DNA of 30,257 bases, taken from IMG/VR virus record IMGVR_UViG_3300022752_003029, positions 1-30,257 of that record. One strand, 5' to 3'. The notes beneath the pieces were generated by a model that was not told the origin of the DNA, did not search any database, and saw nothing but the letters and a program-made list of their open reading frames with translations. Below, piece after piece: positions 551 through 30,257 of the stretch (its first letter is position 1; every line of letters begins with the position of its first letter). This DNA comes from a virus. The position numbers were made by a program, and so were the translations under genes.

Positions 551-2872
551 ATGACGGTAAGCATCATGGGCCAGAAGGCCCAAGTCTACGCGCGCAAGAA
601 GGGATGGAAAGTCTTTCCGCTGCGCGAACGTGAGAAGATGCCGGCGACGGCCAACGGCTTCAAGGACGCCACGAGCGACCTTGAGGAGATCGCGCGCCTG
701 TGGGGCGAACGCGAGTACAACGTCGGGCTCGCGACGGGCGAAGGCTCGGGCGTGTGGGTCTTCGACGTGGACGGAGACGCGCCGAAAGGCGGCGGTCTCA
801 CTGGGCCGGAGGCCCTTGCGCTGCTCGAGGAGCACCACGGCGCGCTGCCGCCTACGCTTACCGTCAGGACCGGGAACGGAGCCCACTACTACTACCGCAT
901 GCCGGTCGGGCGAGACCTTCGCAACCGTGCCCGCATCACCATCGATGGTCAGCGTACCGGCCTCGATGTGCGCGCGGATGGTGGGTATGTGGTGCTCCCG
1001 CCGAGCGTGCACCCGAACGGGCAGGCGTATGCGTTCGTCAAGGGCTGCAACGAGGTGAGCGACGCACCCGACTGGCTGCTCGACGCGCTCTATCCGCGCA
1101 AGCCAGAGCCGACGCCGAAGCCTGCGACCGTCGAGGCGAGCGACGACGACCAAGCGACCGGCCGCGATGTATTGCAGGTTGCAGCAGACCGCATCCGCGC
1201 ATGCACGGATGGACGGCGGCATGAGACCATTTACCGAGAGAGCGCGATCATCGGCGAGCTCGTTGCGGGCGGGTGTATCGACCGAGAGGCGGCTACGGTC
1301 GCTCTGGTCGAGGCTGGCCTCGCCATCGGCAAGCCGGAGGCAGAGGTGCGCCGAACGGTGCGCGATGGGCTGGACCGTGGAGCACAGAGCCCGCGACGCT
1401 TCTCCGACGCTCCATCAACCATTCCTCCGACGCCCTACAGGCCGAGCGACGTAGGCAACGCCGCGCGCCTCGTGGACCGTTTCGGTGGCGATGTTCGATG
1501 GTGCGACACGGCCCAGGGCGAAGGATGGCTTGTGTGGGACGGCAAGCGATGGGCGCCAGACAGCATGCGTCGCGTTGATGCTATGTCCCGCGAAGTGGCT
1601 GCGGACGTCGTGGCTTACGCCGCAGACCTACAGCAGCGAGCGCGCGCAGCAGCCGCAGCAGCTGGACAGACCACAACGCCGGCACAGCAGCGCGCCCTCG
1701 CGCAGCTCCGCACCGAAGCCAAGTCATGGATGCTCTGGGCACGCCAGAGCGAAATGGTGTCTCACCTCGGGGCTGTGGCCAAGGTGGCGCGCACTGACGT
1801 AGCCATCTCACACGAGGACCTCGACGCAGACCCGTGGCTGCTGAACACGCAGAACGGGATCGTGGACCTTCGCCTCGACGCGCAACGACCGCACGAGCGA
1901 GAGGCGCGCATGACGAAGCTGACCGGCACAGAGCTCGGCAACCGGTACGGATGCCCCACGTGGATCGCGTTCCTTACGCGCATCATGGGCGGCAGCGAGG
2001 AGATGGTGTCCTTCATCCAGCGAGTGGTGGGGTACTGCCTCAGTGGGAGCACGCGCGAGCAGTGCCTCTTCATCCTTTACGGGAACGGGAGCAACGGCAA
2101 GAGCACCTTCCTGGACACGGTGCGCGCTGTGCTCGGAGACTACGCGATGCACGCACGCGCGGAGACTTTCGTGCGCGATAGCCGCGGAGGCATCCCCAAC
2201 GACATCGCCGCACTGCGAGGCGCACGCCTTGTGACGGCATCGGAGCCTGAGCAGGGCGAGCAGCTGGACGAGGGGCTCGTGAAGGAAATGACGGGCGATG
2301 CCGCGATGACGGCGCGCTTCATGCGCTCGGAGTTCTTCACGTTCACGCCGACGTTCAAGGTCCTTCTCGCCACGAACCACCGACCGATCATCCGAGGAAC
2401 GGATCACGGCATCTGGCGCCGCATTCGCCTCGTGCCGTTCACAGAGACGATCGCCGAGAATGAGAAGGACCGCGACCTCGGGGCGAAACTCGCAGCCGAG
2501 TCGCCAGGCATTCTCGCATGGGCTGTGCAGGGATGCGTCGAGTGGCAGCGCATCGGCCTAGCACCGCCGGCTGTGGTGACCGATGCGACGCAAGACTACC
2601 GCGCCGACATGGACATCCTCTCTGAGTTCATCGAGGAGAAGTGCATGCTCTACGCAACGGTAGGCAACACGGCGCTCTATCAGGCCTTCAGCGCATGGTC
2701 TGCCGCGAACGGAGAGCGCCCTCGGTCGCACCGATGGTTGACCCGTGCGCTCACCGATCGTGGGTACAAACAGGATCCCAACCGTTCCGCAGGTCGCCGC
2801 TGGCTCGGACTGTCCTTGCGTGAGCAGCCGTCGCCTGGAGCAAGCCGCGCCGACCGCTCGACGTTCTACTGA
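551..2872 (+). CDS. Prim-Pol primase fused to P4/D5-type SF3 helicase
   Basis: This 773-aa protein should prime and unwind DNA for phage replication. The N-terminal part resembles a bifunctional primase/polymerase domain: a metal-binding FDVDG at residues 71-75 (Asp72, Asp74), a TGNGAHYYYR segment with His112, and LDVRADGGYVVLPPS around 138-152. The C-terminal half is a P4-type superfamily 3 helicase with Walker A GNGSNGKST at 511-519 and downstream ATNHRP typical of these enzymes (LLATNHRPIIRGTDHGIWRR). The start at 551 is chosen because AGGTGGAG lies just upstream; an earlier in-frame ATG at 449 would translate the GC hairpin region into Pro/Arg-rich sequence. The gene is followed at once by an eight-repeat inverted-repeat region (2873-3096), the arrangement expected for an initiator-helicase and its origin, as known for phage P4 alpha protein. 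Confidence 0.93.
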   Translation: MTVSIMGQKAQVYARKKGWKVFPLREREKMPATANGFKDATSDLEEIARLWGEREYNVGLATGEGSGVWVFDVDGDAPKGGGLTGPEALALLEEHHGALPPTLTVRTGNGAHYYYRMPVGRDLRNRARITIDGQRTGLDVRADGGYVVLPPSVHPNGQAYAFVKGCNEVSDAPDWLLDALYPRKPEPTPKPATVEASDDDQATGRDVLQVAADRIRACTDGRRHETIYRESAIIGELVAGGCIDREAATVALVEAGLAIGKPEAEVRRTVRDGLDRGAQSPRRFSDAPSTIPPTPYRPSDVGNAARLVDRFGGDVRWCDTAQGEGWLVWDGKRWAPDSMRRVDAMSREVAADVVAYAADLQQRARAAAAAAGQTTTPAQQRALAQLRTEAKSWMLWARQSEMVSHLGAVAKVARTDVAISHEDLDADPWLLNTQNGIVDLRLDAQRPHEREARMTKLTGTELGNRYGCPTWIAFLTRIMGGSEEMVSFIQRVVGYCLSGSTREQCLFILYGNGSNGKSTFLDTVRAVLGDYAMHARAETFVRDSRGGIPNDIAALRGARLVTASEPEQGEQLDEGLVKEMTGDAAMTARFMRSEFFTFTPTFKVLLATNHRPIIRGTDHGIWRRIRLVPFTETIAENEKDRDLGAKLAAESPGILAWAVQGCVEWQRIGLAPPAVVTDATQDYRADMDILSEFIEEKCMLYATVGNTALYQAFSAWSAANGERPRSHRWLTRALTDRGYKQDPNRSAGRRWLGLSLREQPSPGASRADRSTFY

Positions 2873-3096
2873 CGGACACTTCTTCGGACACTTCCGCACC
2901 ACCTACGATGCGCCTACCATCGATGTGCGGACACTACGGACACTTCTTTTCAACATCATCCCGCGTATGTGAGAAGGTAACGAAACGACACCCACATACA
3001 TATATACAGATCATGTCGGAAACTTCTGTCCGTAGTGTCCGCATCGCGATGGGAACGGCATCGTAGGCGTCTTCGAAGTGTCCGTCGATCTGTCCG
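2873..3096. repeat. Eight CGGACA repeats in a large inverted repeat; candidate replication origin
   Basis: CGGACA occurs four times on the plus strand (2873, 2885, 2928, 2937) and four times on the minus strand (TGTCCG at 3027, 3036, 3079, 3091). Extended units read CGGACACTTC at four sites, CGGACACTAC at two, CGGACAGAAG and CGGACAGATC. The core is a 41-base inverted repeat, 2902-2942 against 3027-3067, with 7 mismatches; it contains the exact 17-base arm TGCGGACACTACGGACA. The arms are separated by 84 bases that include the AT-rich run ACATACATATATACAG. The region fills the whole gap between the primase-helicase stop and the next gene. Symmetric repeats flanking an AT-rich centre next to a replication gene suggest an origin; an operator array for a repressor is the alternative. 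Confidence 0.75.
2965..3006 (+). promoter_or_regulatory. Candidate operator/promoter in the repeat spacer (shared 14-mer)
   Basis: CGACACCCACATAC at 2986-2999 is identical to 28513-28526, where it fills the spacer of a strong sigma70-like promoter. Here it is preceded by GTAACG (2977-2982, four of six matches to TTGACG in the same relative position) and followed by ATATATA, so a weak promoter GTAACG-18-TATATA reading right is possible. The last seven bases CACATAC also form an inverted repeat with GTATGTG at 2965-2971. I infer an operator for a phage regulator, most simply the XRE protein encoded at 28569. Confidence 0.5.
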
Positions 3097-3112
3097 CACC
3101 ACAGGAGCAACC

Positions 3113-3358
3113 ATGACCGTAGACTTTCGTACCTGGCTCTCGCGGCACAAGAACCGCAACAGCCCTCTCGGCGACCTCGCCACCGATGCACTGAGCAAAG
3201 GCGGCAGATGGACGGGAGACTGTCCTGAAACGCTGCGCGATGCCCTCGACCGTCTGCGCGCATGCTCTGCGGCGTACGACACGCTCGACGCAGCCGTGAA
3301 GCAGTGGCGGCGCTACAACAAGAGCAAGCAGGGTTGCCGAGGCGCGACCCCACGTTAA
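3113..3358 (+). CDS. YozE-like SAM-fold small protein
   Basis: An 81-aa protein. The N-terminal FRTWLSRHKNRNSPLGDLATD resembles the YozE family signature (an aromatic residue, W-L, then P-[LI]-G-D-L-A-x-D), and the later AVKQWRRYN fits the closing helix; family length is about 70 residues. Members are small helical proteins of unknown function, often encoded by Gram-positive bacteria and phages. ATG 3113 is preferred because AGGAG lies at 3103-3107; the frame is open further upstream (to 3035), but that would run through the repeat region. It is the first gene after the candidate origin and stands alone, with a 197-base gap before the next gene. Confidence 0.7.
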   Translation: MTVDFRTWLSRHKNRNSPLGDLATDALSKGGRWTGDCPETLRDALDRLRACSAAYDTLDAAVKQWRRYNKSKQGCRGATPR

Positions 3359-3555
3359 AGAACCGATGCGTGGATCTCCACGTGAACGTAGGGAAAGCCG
3401 TCCCGGTAATGGTGCCGGGCGGCGCTCCCGGCGACTGGACCGGGCCAGAACGCGCGCGAAAGCCGTGTATACTGACCGACACCCCCCCCGACCCCGTATG
3501 GTTCTCGACTTTCTCTCGCTCGACCGGTACCTTGAAGCCAAGAAACGGAGCCCAA
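3359..3555 (+). promoter_or_regulatory. Non-coding gap with hairpin and TGTATACT element
   Basis: The gap has a GC hairpin GCCGGG-CGGCGCT-CCCGGC at about 3414-3432, the octamer TGTATACT at 3466-3473, and an eight-C run at 3482-3489. TATACT would be an acceptable -10 box 83 bases before the next start, but the hexamer 17 bases upstream (CCAGAA) is not a -35 box. TGTATACT recurs at 6147 and 10643, each just before another gene, so it may be a promoter or a phage-factor site for late transcription. No convincing small gene is seen. Confidence 0.4.
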
Positions 3556-3924
3556 ATGGCGATCGAACGCCGCAAGCCACGCGACCGGGCGACCAACTAC
3601 GGCAAGCTGCCCGACACGCAGGAGCGGGTCGAGTACCTGCGTGACGCACTGCGCCACGCGGAGAGCATGGTCACGAAGGCAGAAGAGGCGCGGTCATGGC
3701 AAGCGGCCGTTAGCGCGAAGCGCCTCGCGCTCCAGACGCGCGACGAACTAGACTTGGCGCTTGCCAAGGCCTCGGCCCCTGACGACACTATGAGCGATGA
3801 GCAACTCCTCTCGATCATGGTCCAGGCCATCGCCTCGCTACCGGCTCAGCATCTCGAGCGCCTCGAGGATGCGATCGCGATCCGACGTGGCGCTCCACCT
3901 GTGCGACTGGTTGAGACTGCTTGA
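3556..3924 (+). CDS. Putative terminase small subunit / coiled-coil DNA-packaging protein
   Basis: A 122-aa, highly charged, mainly helical protein. Residues 19-60 form a likely coiled coil (RVEYLRDALRHAESMVTKAE) and a second helical part (SDEQLLSIMVQAIASLPAQH, about 78-97) follows an acidic linker. The shape (basic N-terminus, central coiled coil, C-terminal helices) and the position two genes before the large terminase fit a small terminase, but I see no clear HTH and call this only as a candidate. ATG 3556 is preceded by GGAG at 3547-3550; longer in-frame versions extend into GC-hairpin sequence. Its stop overlaps the TTG start of the next gene (TTGA), so the two are translationally coupled. 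Confidence 0.5.
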   Translation: MAIERRKPRDRATNYGKLPDTQERVEYLRDALRHAESMVTKAEEARSWQAAVSAKRLALQTRDELDLALAKASAPDDTMSDEQLLSIMVQAIASLPAQHLERLEDAIAIRRGAPPVRLVETA

Positions 3925-4808
3925 TCGCCCTCTCCCTCTCTGGCGGCAAAGACTCGGTCGCGGCCTCGCTGCATCTGCGCGAGATGGGTCTCGACCATGT
4001 TCGTATCTTCATGGATACGGGGTGGGAGCATGCGGACCTTTACGCGCACCTCGACTATCTAGAGCGCGAACTCGGACCGGTCATTCGGCTTGCTCCGAAG
4101 ATGCCAGACATCCCGGCCGAGATCCTCGGGCGTGTCGAGGAGATCGAACACGTTGTCGGTCGTTCGCCGTCTGGCTTCGTTCGCTGGGCGGTGCATAAGG
4201 CGATGTTCCCAAGTCGCATGCGTCGGTACTGCACCCAAGAGCTGAAGGTCAAGCCTTTCCTCCGCTGGGTCAATGAACAGGACGACGACATCGTCAACGT
4301 GGTCGGCATTCGTGCCGAGGAGAGCATCGCTCGCTCGAAGCTCACCGAGCGAGAGCCGATGCTCGGAGCCGAACACGTCGAGGTTTGGCGCCCTCTGTTG
4401 AAGTGGACCGAGGCAGACGTGATCGCCATCCACGGAAGGCATGGCGTGCTTCCGTGTCCTCTTTACCTGCGCGGCTCTACCAGGGTCGGATGCTGGCCGT
4501 GCATCCAGGCGAACAAGGGAGAGCTTGCCGCGCTTTCAACGGACGATCGACGCGTTGAAGCCATCCGCATGCTCGAGGCTCTTGTCGCTGACCTCGCTCG
4601 ACTACGAAGGGACAGATCTCCCCCGGCTATGTTTCAGGCACCGATCGCCGAGATGACGGCAGACGGCCCGAAGTACCCATGCTGGCCGATCGATCGTGTT
4701 CTCGAATGGTCTCGTACTGCTCGAGGTGGTCGGCAGATGCAGCTCGGTGGTGGATGGGGACAGGAAGCCGGGTGCGCTCGCTGGGGTCTTTGTGAGGTGG
4801 CGACGTGA
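3921..4808 (+). CDS. PAPS-reductase family PP-loop protein (DndC-like cysteines)
   Basis: A 295-aa protein with an N-terminal ATP-pyrophosphatase PP-loop SGGKDS at residues 7-12. Further family marks are FMDTGWEH (30-37), RRYCTQELKVKP (101-112, Cys104), VVGIRAEES (127-135) and GCWPC (190-194, Cys191 and Cys194); more cysteines are at 179, 254, 285 and 291. The family adenylates a substrate and moves sulfur; members include CysH, and DndC of DNA phosphorothioation, which also has an RxCTxxLK block and a GCWxC block. The cysteines could hold an Fe-S cluster, which is inference. The TTG start overlaps the upstream stop; any ATG start would lose the PP-loop. It sits between the possible small terminase and the large terminase, overlapping the latter by GTGA. 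No other dnd-type gene is in the window, so its substrate is open. Confidence 0.82.
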   Translation: MIALSLSGGKDSVAASLHLREMGLDHVRIFMDTGWEHADLYAHLDYLERELGPVIRLAPKMPDIPAEILGRVEEIEHVVGRSPSGFVRWAVHKAMFPSRMRRYCTQELKVKPFLRWVNEQDDDIVNVVGIRAEESIARSKLTEREPMLGAEHVEVWRPLLKWTEADVIAIHGRHGVLPCPLYLRGSTRVGCWPCIQANKGELAALSTDDRRVEAIRMLEALVADLARLRRDRSPPAMFQAPIAEMTADGPKYPCWPIDRVLEWSRTARGGRQMQLGGGWGQEAGCARWGLCEVAT

Positions 4809-24578: not shown

Positions 24579-24669
24579 CGCGCAGCACGCACACGGCGAC
24601 CCGTGCGAGCAGCTGCACCATCGCGCCAACGAGCAGCACGATGGTCGCCACGGTTAGCCACGCGACCAC
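24502..24669 (-). CDS. Putative small membrane protein (55 aa)
   Basis: GTG at 24669 shares its G with the stop of the methyltransferase (TAGTG). The product starts MVAWLTVATIVLLVGAMVQL with a continuous apolar segment to about residue 30, then a basic tail (SRARLRRQSARRR). One membrane-spanning helix with a basic inner end fits a small inner-membrane peptide. It lies in the otherwise uncoded strand stretch 24579-24668 and overlaps the converging gene by 77 bases. It could be a holin-like or superinfection-related peptide; the evidence is limited to hydrophobicity and coupling. Confidence 0.4.
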   Translation of the reverse strand: MVAWLTVATIVLLVGAMVQLLARVAVCVLRAIVSRARLRRQSARRRSSHRGLSRP

Positions 24670-25748
24670 TACTCGACCAGATGCGCGAAGAGCGGCCCGA
24701 GCGTGAACCGGATGCGCGCCCGCGCGATCTCGGCGTACTCGGGCGAGAGCTCGCACCCGACGAAGCGCATCCCCTCAAGCATCGCCGCGCGCCCCGTGGA
24801 ACCGGACCCGGTGAATGGGTCCAGGACAAGCCCACCGGGCGGCGTGACCATCCGCACGAGGTAGCGCATGAGGTCGGTGGGCTTCACGGTCGGATGCACG
24901 TTCTTCGGCACGTCTCCGATCATCTCGTCGCGGTCCTCTCCGCTCGCCTTCGCCGTGTAGAAGTACCGTGCCGCGTCGCGTAGCCCCTCGGTCGCCTCGT
25001 CGCTGCCGTCGTGGAGGACGTTGGCGGGCCAGCGGCCCAATATGCCGTCGGGGTAAAGGTCAAATGTGTTGATAGGCTTCTGCTCGCCGCCTACGTACTC
25101 GGTCTGCCATCCACCAACTGCACGGCGCAGTTCCTCGTCTGTTTGAACCCTACACCCATCCACATTGATCGCACCCGTACCGTACCGCAGCACATTCGCC
25201 GCGACGGTCCCGGTCAGCGGCTTCCGCGCCATGCAGATCGGTTCATGCGCTGGCTTTAGGGCCGTGCCCCAGCCGGACCAGCGGCGGGCGTCGTCGGTGC
25301 TTTCTCCCGTTCTTGACAGCTGGTTCTTCGTGACGTTGTATCCACCGGGACCGTCTGGACCCATGAAGCCTACGCCAGAGGCCGGCCGACTTTCGAAGGC
25401 TACACCCGCCGCTTTATCGATTGCCTTGGACACGTCATGCGATTTCGGGAACCCGCTCCCGTAGAGCCACATGATCTGGTCGCGCACGTCGAAGCCTGCG
25501 TCCTCGATGGCGCACGCCATGCGGTGGTAGGTCCGTGACCCCGAGAAGGCCAGAAGATGCCCGCCGGGCTTCAGCACCCGCAGGGCCTGCCGCCATACCT
25601 CAAGGTCATAGGCGATCCCGCTGGCGTCCCACTTCCGGCCCATGAATCCGAGTTCGTAGGGCGGGTCGCACACGACTGCGTCCACGCTCTCGGCGTCGAG
25701 CGTAGCCATGCTCTCGCGGCAGTCGCCGACGAGGATGCGCGCCCTCAT
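24669..25748 (-). CDS. DNA adenine/cytosine-N4 methyltransferase (beta class)
   Basis: A 359-aa site-specific amino-methyltransferase. The catalytic DPPY is at residues 28-31 and the AdoMet motif DPFTGSGSTG at 310-319, an order (IV before I) that defines the beta class. HPTVKPTDLM at 285-294 is another family block. The stretch between, about 100-270, is the target recognition part and has no recognisable specificity. No matching restriction enzyme is in the window, so it most likely protects phage DNA from host cleavage or marks it for regulation. It overlaps the upstream gene by ATGA and is the largest gene of the leftward operon. Confidence 0.9.
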   Translation of the reverse strand: MRARILVGDCRESMATLDAESVDAVVCDPPYELGFMGRKWDASGIAYDLEVWRQALRVLKPGGHLLAFSGSRTYHRMACAIEDAGFDVRDQIMWLYGSGFPKSHDVSKAIDKAAGVAFESRPASGVGFMGPDGPGGYNVTKNQLSRTGESTDDARRWSGWGTALKPAHEPICMARKPLTGTVAANVLRYGTGAINVDGCRVQTDEELRRAVGGWQTEYVGGEQKPINTFDLYPDGILGRWPANVLHDGSDEATEGLRDAARYFYTAKASGEDRDEMIGDVPKNVHPTVKPTDLMRYLVRMVTPPGGLVLDPFTGSGSTGRAAMLEGMRFVGCELSPEYAEIARARIRFTLGPLFAHLVE

Positions 25749-28568: not shown

Positions 28569-28778
28569 ATGGGATCACTCGCAGACAGACGTAAAGCCGC
28601 AGGGCTCACTCAGGCGCAGCTTGCCGACCTCGTCGGTGTGGGAATCAGCGCCATCAAGGCGTACGAGAACGGTCGCCGCCGGCCGGCCGCTCGCGTGATC
28701 ATGGAGCTCTACAAGGCTCTGGGCCTCACGGCCTCGGACATCGCCGAGCTCTACATGAAGGACGGAGGTGCAGAATGA
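28569..28778 (+). CDS. XRE-family (Cro-like) regulator
   Basis: A 69-aa DNA-binding protein consisting almost wholly of one HTH: LADRRKAAGLTQAQLADLVG at 4-23, then the recognition helix region GISAIKAYENGRRRPAARVI. It has no C-terminal cleavage or dimer domain, so it is Cro-like in size. GGAG at 28556-28559 precedes ATG 28569. It sits about 30 bases after the predicted rightward start and would be expected to bind the promoter region and the same 14-mer at 2986. As the first gene of the right operon it probably sets the balance between the two early operons. Confidence 0.88.
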   Translation: MGSLADRRKAAGLTQAQLADLVGVGISAIKAYENGRRRPAARVIMELYKALGLTASDIAELYMKDGGAE

Positions 28779-29905: not shown

Positions 29906-30129
29906 ACTGCACCCGATGCGGTAAACCGTCGCGCGTCGTGGACACACGCCAACCCGACGACAGCGGAGGCGTCTACAGCGGGCGCATCCGCAAGGCCGGC
30001 GAGGTGGCCAGCTGGTACACGTCCGACGTGGTCGTGCGTCGTCGTGTGTGCCCGGAGAAGCACGAATGGTTTACCGTCGAGCTCTCGACCGAGGACGTCA
30101 CGGCGATGGTTCAAGAGGGCAAGCCATGA
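29902..30129 (+). CDS. NrdR-like zinc-ribbon protein (complete copy)
   Basis: A 75-aa protein with CTRCGKPSRVVDTRQPDDSG at the start and VVRRRVCPEKHEWFTVEL near the end. Cys3, Cys6, Cys50 and His54 could bind zinc. The order C-x2-C, VVDTR, RRR-x-C and WFT-E is that of the zinc ribbon of NrdR, the repressor of ribonucleotide reductase genes, but the ATP-cone of NrdR (about 100 further residues) is absent. It may bind DNA at NrdR-type sites or be a general zinc-ribbon adaptor. It starts inside the upstream stop and ends in the start of the HTH gene. The last 25 codons appear in a second allele at 3-80. Confidence 0.75.
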   Translation: MNCTRCGKPSRVVDTRQPDDSGGVYSGRIRKAGEVASWYTSDVVVRRRVCPEKHEWFTVELSTEDVTAMVQEGKP

Positions 30130-30257
30130 ACGCGCCGACCGAACACGACCCCGTCCTCGTGCTGCTCTGGATCATGGAGCGCATGGACGGCGTGGCGCTG
30201 GAGTACATCGCCCGACGTGAGCGGATGCGGACCTCGACCATGCGGGACATCCTCGCG
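30050..30257. repeat. Right copy of imperfect terminal overlap
   Basis: Partner of 1-208. The stretch 30131-30257 is identical to 82-208; 30050-30130 differs from 1-81 at eight bases. See the left copy for interpretation. Confidence 0.85.
30126..30257 (+). CDS. Putative HTH protein, 5' part (repeat of the gene at 77-445)
   Basis: The first 44 codons of the gene described at 77-445, cut by the right edge. It is identical to 77-208 except base 30130 (A, giving Asn instead of Ser at residue 2). It is the overlap of the circular map and should not be counted as an extra gene. Confidence 0.85.
   Translation, partial: MNAPTEHDPVLVLLWIMERMDGVALEYIARRERMRTSTMRDILA

Follow-up and report, generated by a model that had tools for sequence, protein, structure and literature searches.

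The window analysed here, the whole 30,257-nt stretch of IMG/VR virus record IMGVR_UViG_3300022752_003029, contains a gap (2873-3112) directly behind a primase-helicase gene in which one short word is repeated in mirror arrangement. The question raised by this locus is what the repeats are for and which protein, if any, reads them. Judging from comparative sequence analysis, we hold with considerable confidence that the gap is the phage replication origin and that the upstream primase-helicase is its initiator. The record is classed as linear, and its ends (1-208 and 30050-30257) match at 96%, which makes it likely that the record is a circularly permuted and essentially complete genome, about 30,049 bp long. 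The features of the locus are as follows.

551-2872, plus strand: primase-helicase with Prim-Pol (aa 11-175), D5_N (aa 304-479) and DUF5906/SF3 helicase (aa 509-624) domains
2642-2818, plus strand: predicted winged helix of the primase-helicase (about aa 698-756; AlphaFold pLDDT 85.7)
2873-2890, plus strand: left outer pair of words, CGGACACTTC at 2873 and 2885, spacing 12 (kept in relatives)
2902-3067, no strand: 41-nt inverted repeat, arms 2902-2942 and 3027-3067
2903-2910, plus strand: second mirrored element, left copy, CTACGATG
2928-2946, plus strand: left inner pair of words, CGGACACTAC at 2928 and CGGACACTTC at 2937, spacing 9
2947-3022, no strand: AT-rich array centre with the innermost inverted repeat ACATCAT (2953-2959) / ATCATGT (3010-3016)
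3023-3041, minus strand: right inner pair of words, at 3027-3032 and 3036-3041, spacing 9
3059-3066, minus strand: second mirrored element, right copy, reading CATCGTAG on the plus strand
3075-3096, minus strand: right outer pair of words, at 3079-3084 and 3091-3096, spacing 12
3113-3358: small ORF bounding the gap (phrog_8600)

A preliminary description of this DNA had reported eight CGGACA copies in mirror layout, and all eight are present, on the plus strand at 2873, 2885, 2928 and 2937 and on the minus strand at 3027, 3036, 3079 and 3091. The mirror is exact, as every plus-strand site has its partner about a single axis (2984.5) with spacings of 12/43/9 and 9/43/12. The longer unit proposed there, CGGACACT(T/A)C, is the usual form, except that the outermost and innermost right-hand sites read CGGACAGA instead. 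A pairing diagram likewise reproduced the 41-nt inverted repeat with 7 mismatches, and the whole array forms 88-nt arms with 73% complementarity. The centre is AT-rich as described (G+C of 0.40 at 2975-3024 vs about 0.66 genome-wide) and is presumed to be the unwinding region. Thus, short sites in both orientations surround an AT-rich region in a noncoding gap adjoining a helicase gene.

CGGACA is not enriched in the window as a whole (26 copies vs 26.6 expected), and the signal resides in its clustering and symmetry. Eight copies within 224 nt are exceptional: across 1000 dinucleotide-shuffled versions of 2873-3112, no 6-mer whatsoever occurred more than 5 times (mean of 2.7 for the most frequent one), and the mirror complementarity of the gap exceeded that of every shuffle. 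In the left arm, each of the 24 word bases has a pairing partner in the right arm, compared to 43 of the 88 positions between and around the words. The second mirrored element (CTACGATG/CATCGTAG), which sits between the outer and inner word pairs, is 88% mirror-paired over seven loci and retains its sequence even as the words vary; searching for it with a loose gapped pattern was uninformative. Promoter and terminator scans of the gap found neither, and an Rfam search gave no match. Another CGGACA, at 536, was rejected as a ninth site because it lies in the primase leader and stays CGGACA where the array word of the relatives has changed.

The array was compared among 13 contigs whose primases are about 59-93% identical to that of the window. 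It lies directly behind the primase stop codon in all 12 contigs with an intact gap, so that no close relative among them has the primase without the repeats, the combination that the preliminary description had named as the case against an origin. The thirteenth contig, L007, breaks off within the gap, beyond the fourth word of the left arm. Four sites per arm are usual, with five per arm in L009 and L021, and the core GGAC(A/G) is kept across the relatives while the flanks vary, giving the following words by locus.

CGGACACTTC: window, L003 and L005
AGGACAC or GGGACAC: L004, L008, L016, L019 and L020
GGACAG: L017 and L018
GGGACGGG: L009

Two of the relatives have unusual structures. In L006 (10386-10520), about 10 extra bases are present within the inner pair of each arm, and the two insertions are mutually complementary, which would fit copying of one arm onto the other. 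In L021 (3800-6270), the Prim-Pol and D5 helicase are separate reading frames, the first of which ends in a zinc-ribbon-like CPSC/CHHRNSC stretch, and the array is still located behind the helicase.

The words change in concert within a locus. Across the eight loci tested, in which shared ancestry of the sites of a locus contributes to some degree, agreement at variable word positions was 0.69 among non-partner sites of one locus vs 0.51 for the same site in different loci. This value was never reached in 2000 trials when either single sites or whole mirror pairs were permuted among loci (p=0.0005 each). Concerted change beyond what arm pairing accounts for suggests that a single trans-acting reader recognises all sites.

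This result bears on the alternative that a DNA hairpin or cruciform does the work, of the sort put forward for plasmid pRN1, and that the words merely make up its stem. The array strand does fold far better than shuffled sequences (z of -9.1 as DNA and -11.6 as RNA), the spacers outside the words are 43-47% mirror-paired vs 25% by chance (on an axis chosen to maximise pairing), and the insertions in L006 are complementary between its arms. There is also a precedent, as a 100-bp stem-loop downstream of the replication gene of pRN1 is needed for replication (PMC4234260), and the window likewise has a long stem-loop downstream of such a gene. However, a stem requires only that the arms pair with each other, whereas the four words of one arm also agree mutually, and they change in concert even after allowing for mirror pairs. 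The window locus and its relatives therefore do not show the pattern of a stem that is kept while its sequence is free to change. Moreover, L008 keeps all eight words despite an outer pair that is out of register with the inner axis. We consider a hairpin unlikely as the functional element; the concerted change within arms favours a reader of the words, with the hairpin possibly an additional feature, and arm-to-arm copying may also have contributed to the pairing of the spacers.

The candidate for that reader is encoded immediately upstream, where an initiator-type D5_N/SF3 helicase gene adjoins the array, as in iteron origins. The preliminary description had called this protein a P4-type helicase. 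Its assignment as a helicase is upheld, and the protein is better described as a Prim-Pol fused to D5_N/SF3, akin to SaPI5 Rep and the D5-type primases of poxviruses and ASFV, than as specifically P4-type. Structurally characterised D5-type primases to which its sequence is related include ASFV C962R and PDB 7ola (E 1e-5), the latter of which we take to be SaPI5 Rep. The structural model predicts a winged helix near the C-terminus, and this would supply the C-terminal DNA-binding domain found in initiators of iteron origins. The best PDB fold matches of the winged helix (AsfvPrimPol, the RFX DNA-binding domain 1dp7, and Cdc6/Orc1) are weak, all with E>0.001, and the Pox_D5 domain (PF03288) was detected in 22 of 36 homologous C-termini. 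The C-terminal winged helix is likely to be the reader of the words.

Comparison of two relatives links this domain with the array. The DNA of L004 is about 87-98% identical to that of L003 over most of the primase. Identity drops to 43-77% over a stretch that takes in the C-terminal domain, the gap and the small ORF that follows, and recovers to 92-99% beyond it, while the C-terminal domain of L004 is 90-92% identical to those of L007 and L008. The drop in identity across both domain and gap indicates that the domain and the origin were exchanged together, although the exchanged segment is contiguous and plain linkage would give the same pattern. Among 13 loci, with the L021 row misframed upstream of the helicase, the distance between C-terminal domains correlated weakly with the distance between words (partial r 0.32, permutation p 0.04), and in the same set the winged-helix tip alone showed no correlation with the word. 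L016 and L017 have identical last 90 residues, yet position 7 differs in several of their words, which implies that some word positions are not read.

Inverted sites in several copies are a common feature of operators as well, and the window encodes an XRE protein (28569-28778), so the array could instead be the operator of a regulator such as this XRE repressor, controlling the genes behind the array. The preliminary description had regarded reading by the XRE protein rather than the primase as decisive against its proposal. However, the XRE sequence does not track the word: L006 and L004, which have other words, encode XRE proteins 99% and 91% identical to that of the window, and in L005, which has the same word, the identity is only 56%. 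No XRE gene was detected in the array-bearing genomes G006, G007, and G009; two of these (G007 and G009) have overlapping ends, and the third, G006, stops at an inferred cos site. In addition, the gap has no sigma-70-like promoter, and the gene behind the array varies between relatives. Given this dissociation across the relatives compared, XRE was rejected as the word reader, and we regard an operator function of this kind as very improbable.

The array also resembles annotated origins of cultured phages. In Lactobacillus phage A2, the rep_origin given in the record annotation (NC_004112, behind the primase gene ORF35) has ACGGGAGGAT words at positions 3853, 3865, and 3929 of our locus L090 and inverted copies at 4004, 4012, 4068, and 4080. 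As in the window, the A2 origin lies directly behind a homologous primase and consists of mirrored words around an AT-rich centre, with outer/inner spacings of 12/8 in A2 and 12/9 in the window. On the other hand, the word is ACGGGAGGAT rather than CGGACACTTC, and the mirror is incomplete as one inner left site is missing among the listed repeats. The unequal word numbers on the two sides of the centre also argue against a simple hairpin. The 302-bp origin of Streptococcus phage Sfi21 (PER element) likewise occupies a noncoding gap behind the primase and has mirrored GTTAC words around an AT-rich centre; the annotated origin holds GTTACTTAGTTAC and its mirror. It differs from the window in its word and in the less regular placement of its outer words. 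This region of Sfi21 has been reported to act as an independent origin that is activated by infection (PMC6356513).

Other elements with D5-type helicases have iterons directly downstream of the gene as well. In SCCmec Cch2, which is of the D5_N type, the isolated C-terminal domain binds short repeats downstream of the gene, and in SaPI Rep the C-terminal domain acts on iterons located directly downstream (PMC7581432). Unlike in these systems, the window has a Prim-Pol fused to the helicase and eight words in exact mirror, in contrast to the three direct-repeat iterons of the putative Cch2 origin. The locus thus joins the known SaPI/Cch2-like iteron origins behind self-loading helicases as a new member, and of greater interest is how widely the mirror geometry occurs. 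ORF904 of pRN1 shares with the window a protein with Prim-Pol, SF3, and winged-helix domains and a replication element directly downstream (PMC4234260). The pRN1 element is a stem-loop without identified words, whereas the word in the window is explicit.

The SF3 helicases SV40 large T and papillomavirus E1 load as two rings on mirrored short sites. Their DNA-binding domain, unlike that of the primase-helicase in the window, is N-terminal (PMC7581432) and unrelated.

A further possibility is that the primase-helicase does read the array, but that the array serves mainly in copy-number control or incompatibility and not in initiation. The alpha system of phage P4 is defined by two separate repeat-bearing sites, ori and crr, and the second of these is bound by the initiator as well. 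Extra copies of the Sfi21 origin block an incoming phage and confer resistance in dairy streptococci (PMC6356513). The window differs from the ori1-crr arrangement in having a single exact-hexamer array, as no second one was found although the window covers nearly the whole genome; consequently, any separate origin would be without words of this kind. We consider it highly unlikely that copy-number control is the main role of the array.

The preliminary description had put forward the gap as a candidate origin. The array geometry, its conservation behind homologous helicase genes, the concerted word change, the agreement with annotated phage origins, and the predicted winged helix together support that proposal, and it is very likely that the region starts replication. 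The GC-skew analysis suggested in the same description gave no support for an origin, as there was no origin-like minimum at the array. In the proposed mechanism, the C-terminal winged helix of the primase would bind the GGACA-core words, and the mirrored pairs would assemble a helicase ring on either side of the AT-rich centre, with the two rings face to face. Once the centre had melted, each SF3 ring would load on a different strand and unwind away from the centre, with priming by the Prim-Pol domain. By analogy, such bidirectional loading of two rings is plausible.

Mirrored arrays behind the helicase gene are common in distant homologues and are not universal. In a redundant survey of 81 homologous loci, 38 had a quadruple of hexamers in exact mirror layout no more than 250 nt behind the stop codon, compared to one locus elsewhere in 605 kb; with 5-mers, the numbers were 62 behind the stop and 16 elsewhere. 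A second set consisted of 53 non-redundant loci, mostly chosen by homology of the C-terminal domain and supplemented by six cultured phages. In this set, hexamers formed an exact mirror array behind the helicase gene in 18 of the 53 vs 2 elsewhere in 248 kb, most of these non-redundant distant homologues being without an array by the exact 6-mer test, and 5-mers gave 28 behind the gene vs 5 elsewhere. The words in distant homologues include GGTGAC, GTGACGG, CCGATA, GATATG, and GTTACT. Among cultured phages, mirrored arrays were present in phi105, AcaML1, and JNU_P9, and none was detected under the exact test in TG1, Kurnik, and MR14. A relative search with a single protein returned two loci, both already known, and a scan of genome contigs returned one distant match without an array.

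These surveys raise the broader hypothesis that many tailed phages with a D5/SF3 primase-helicase share an origin grammar, in which pairs of short words 8-12 bp apart are mirrored behind the helicase gene, and the winged helix and its word form an exchangeable cassette that defines replication-specificity (incompatibility) groups. We give this generalization an even chance of being correct. If true, sequence alone could suffice to locate the origins of many uncultured phages, via the mirrored words behind the helicase gene, and the pairs of winged helix and word would provide a natural series for studying how self-loading helicases choose their origin. Knowledge of the word of a phage would also offer a testable handle on its replication in laboratory hosts, because extra origin copies already confer phage resistance in dairy streptococci (PMC6356513).

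Several other elements were observed in the surrounding genome. A candidate cos site (CCCGTATGGTT, 3493-3503) lies between the array and terL, about 400 nt from the array. The records of the relatives G001, G004, and G006 begin and end at this candidate site with 11-nt terminal repeats, which are exact in G004 and G006 (CCCGTTAGGCT and CGCGCCAGCCC) and imperfect in G001, and this suggests 11-nt cohesive ends at 3493-3503. A strong GC-rich stem-loop (CGCGGGGGC...GCCCCCGCG, 492-518) lies just ahead of the primase and is conserved in L003-L008. The window also encodes an N6/N4 DNA methyltransferase on the minus strand (24669-25748).
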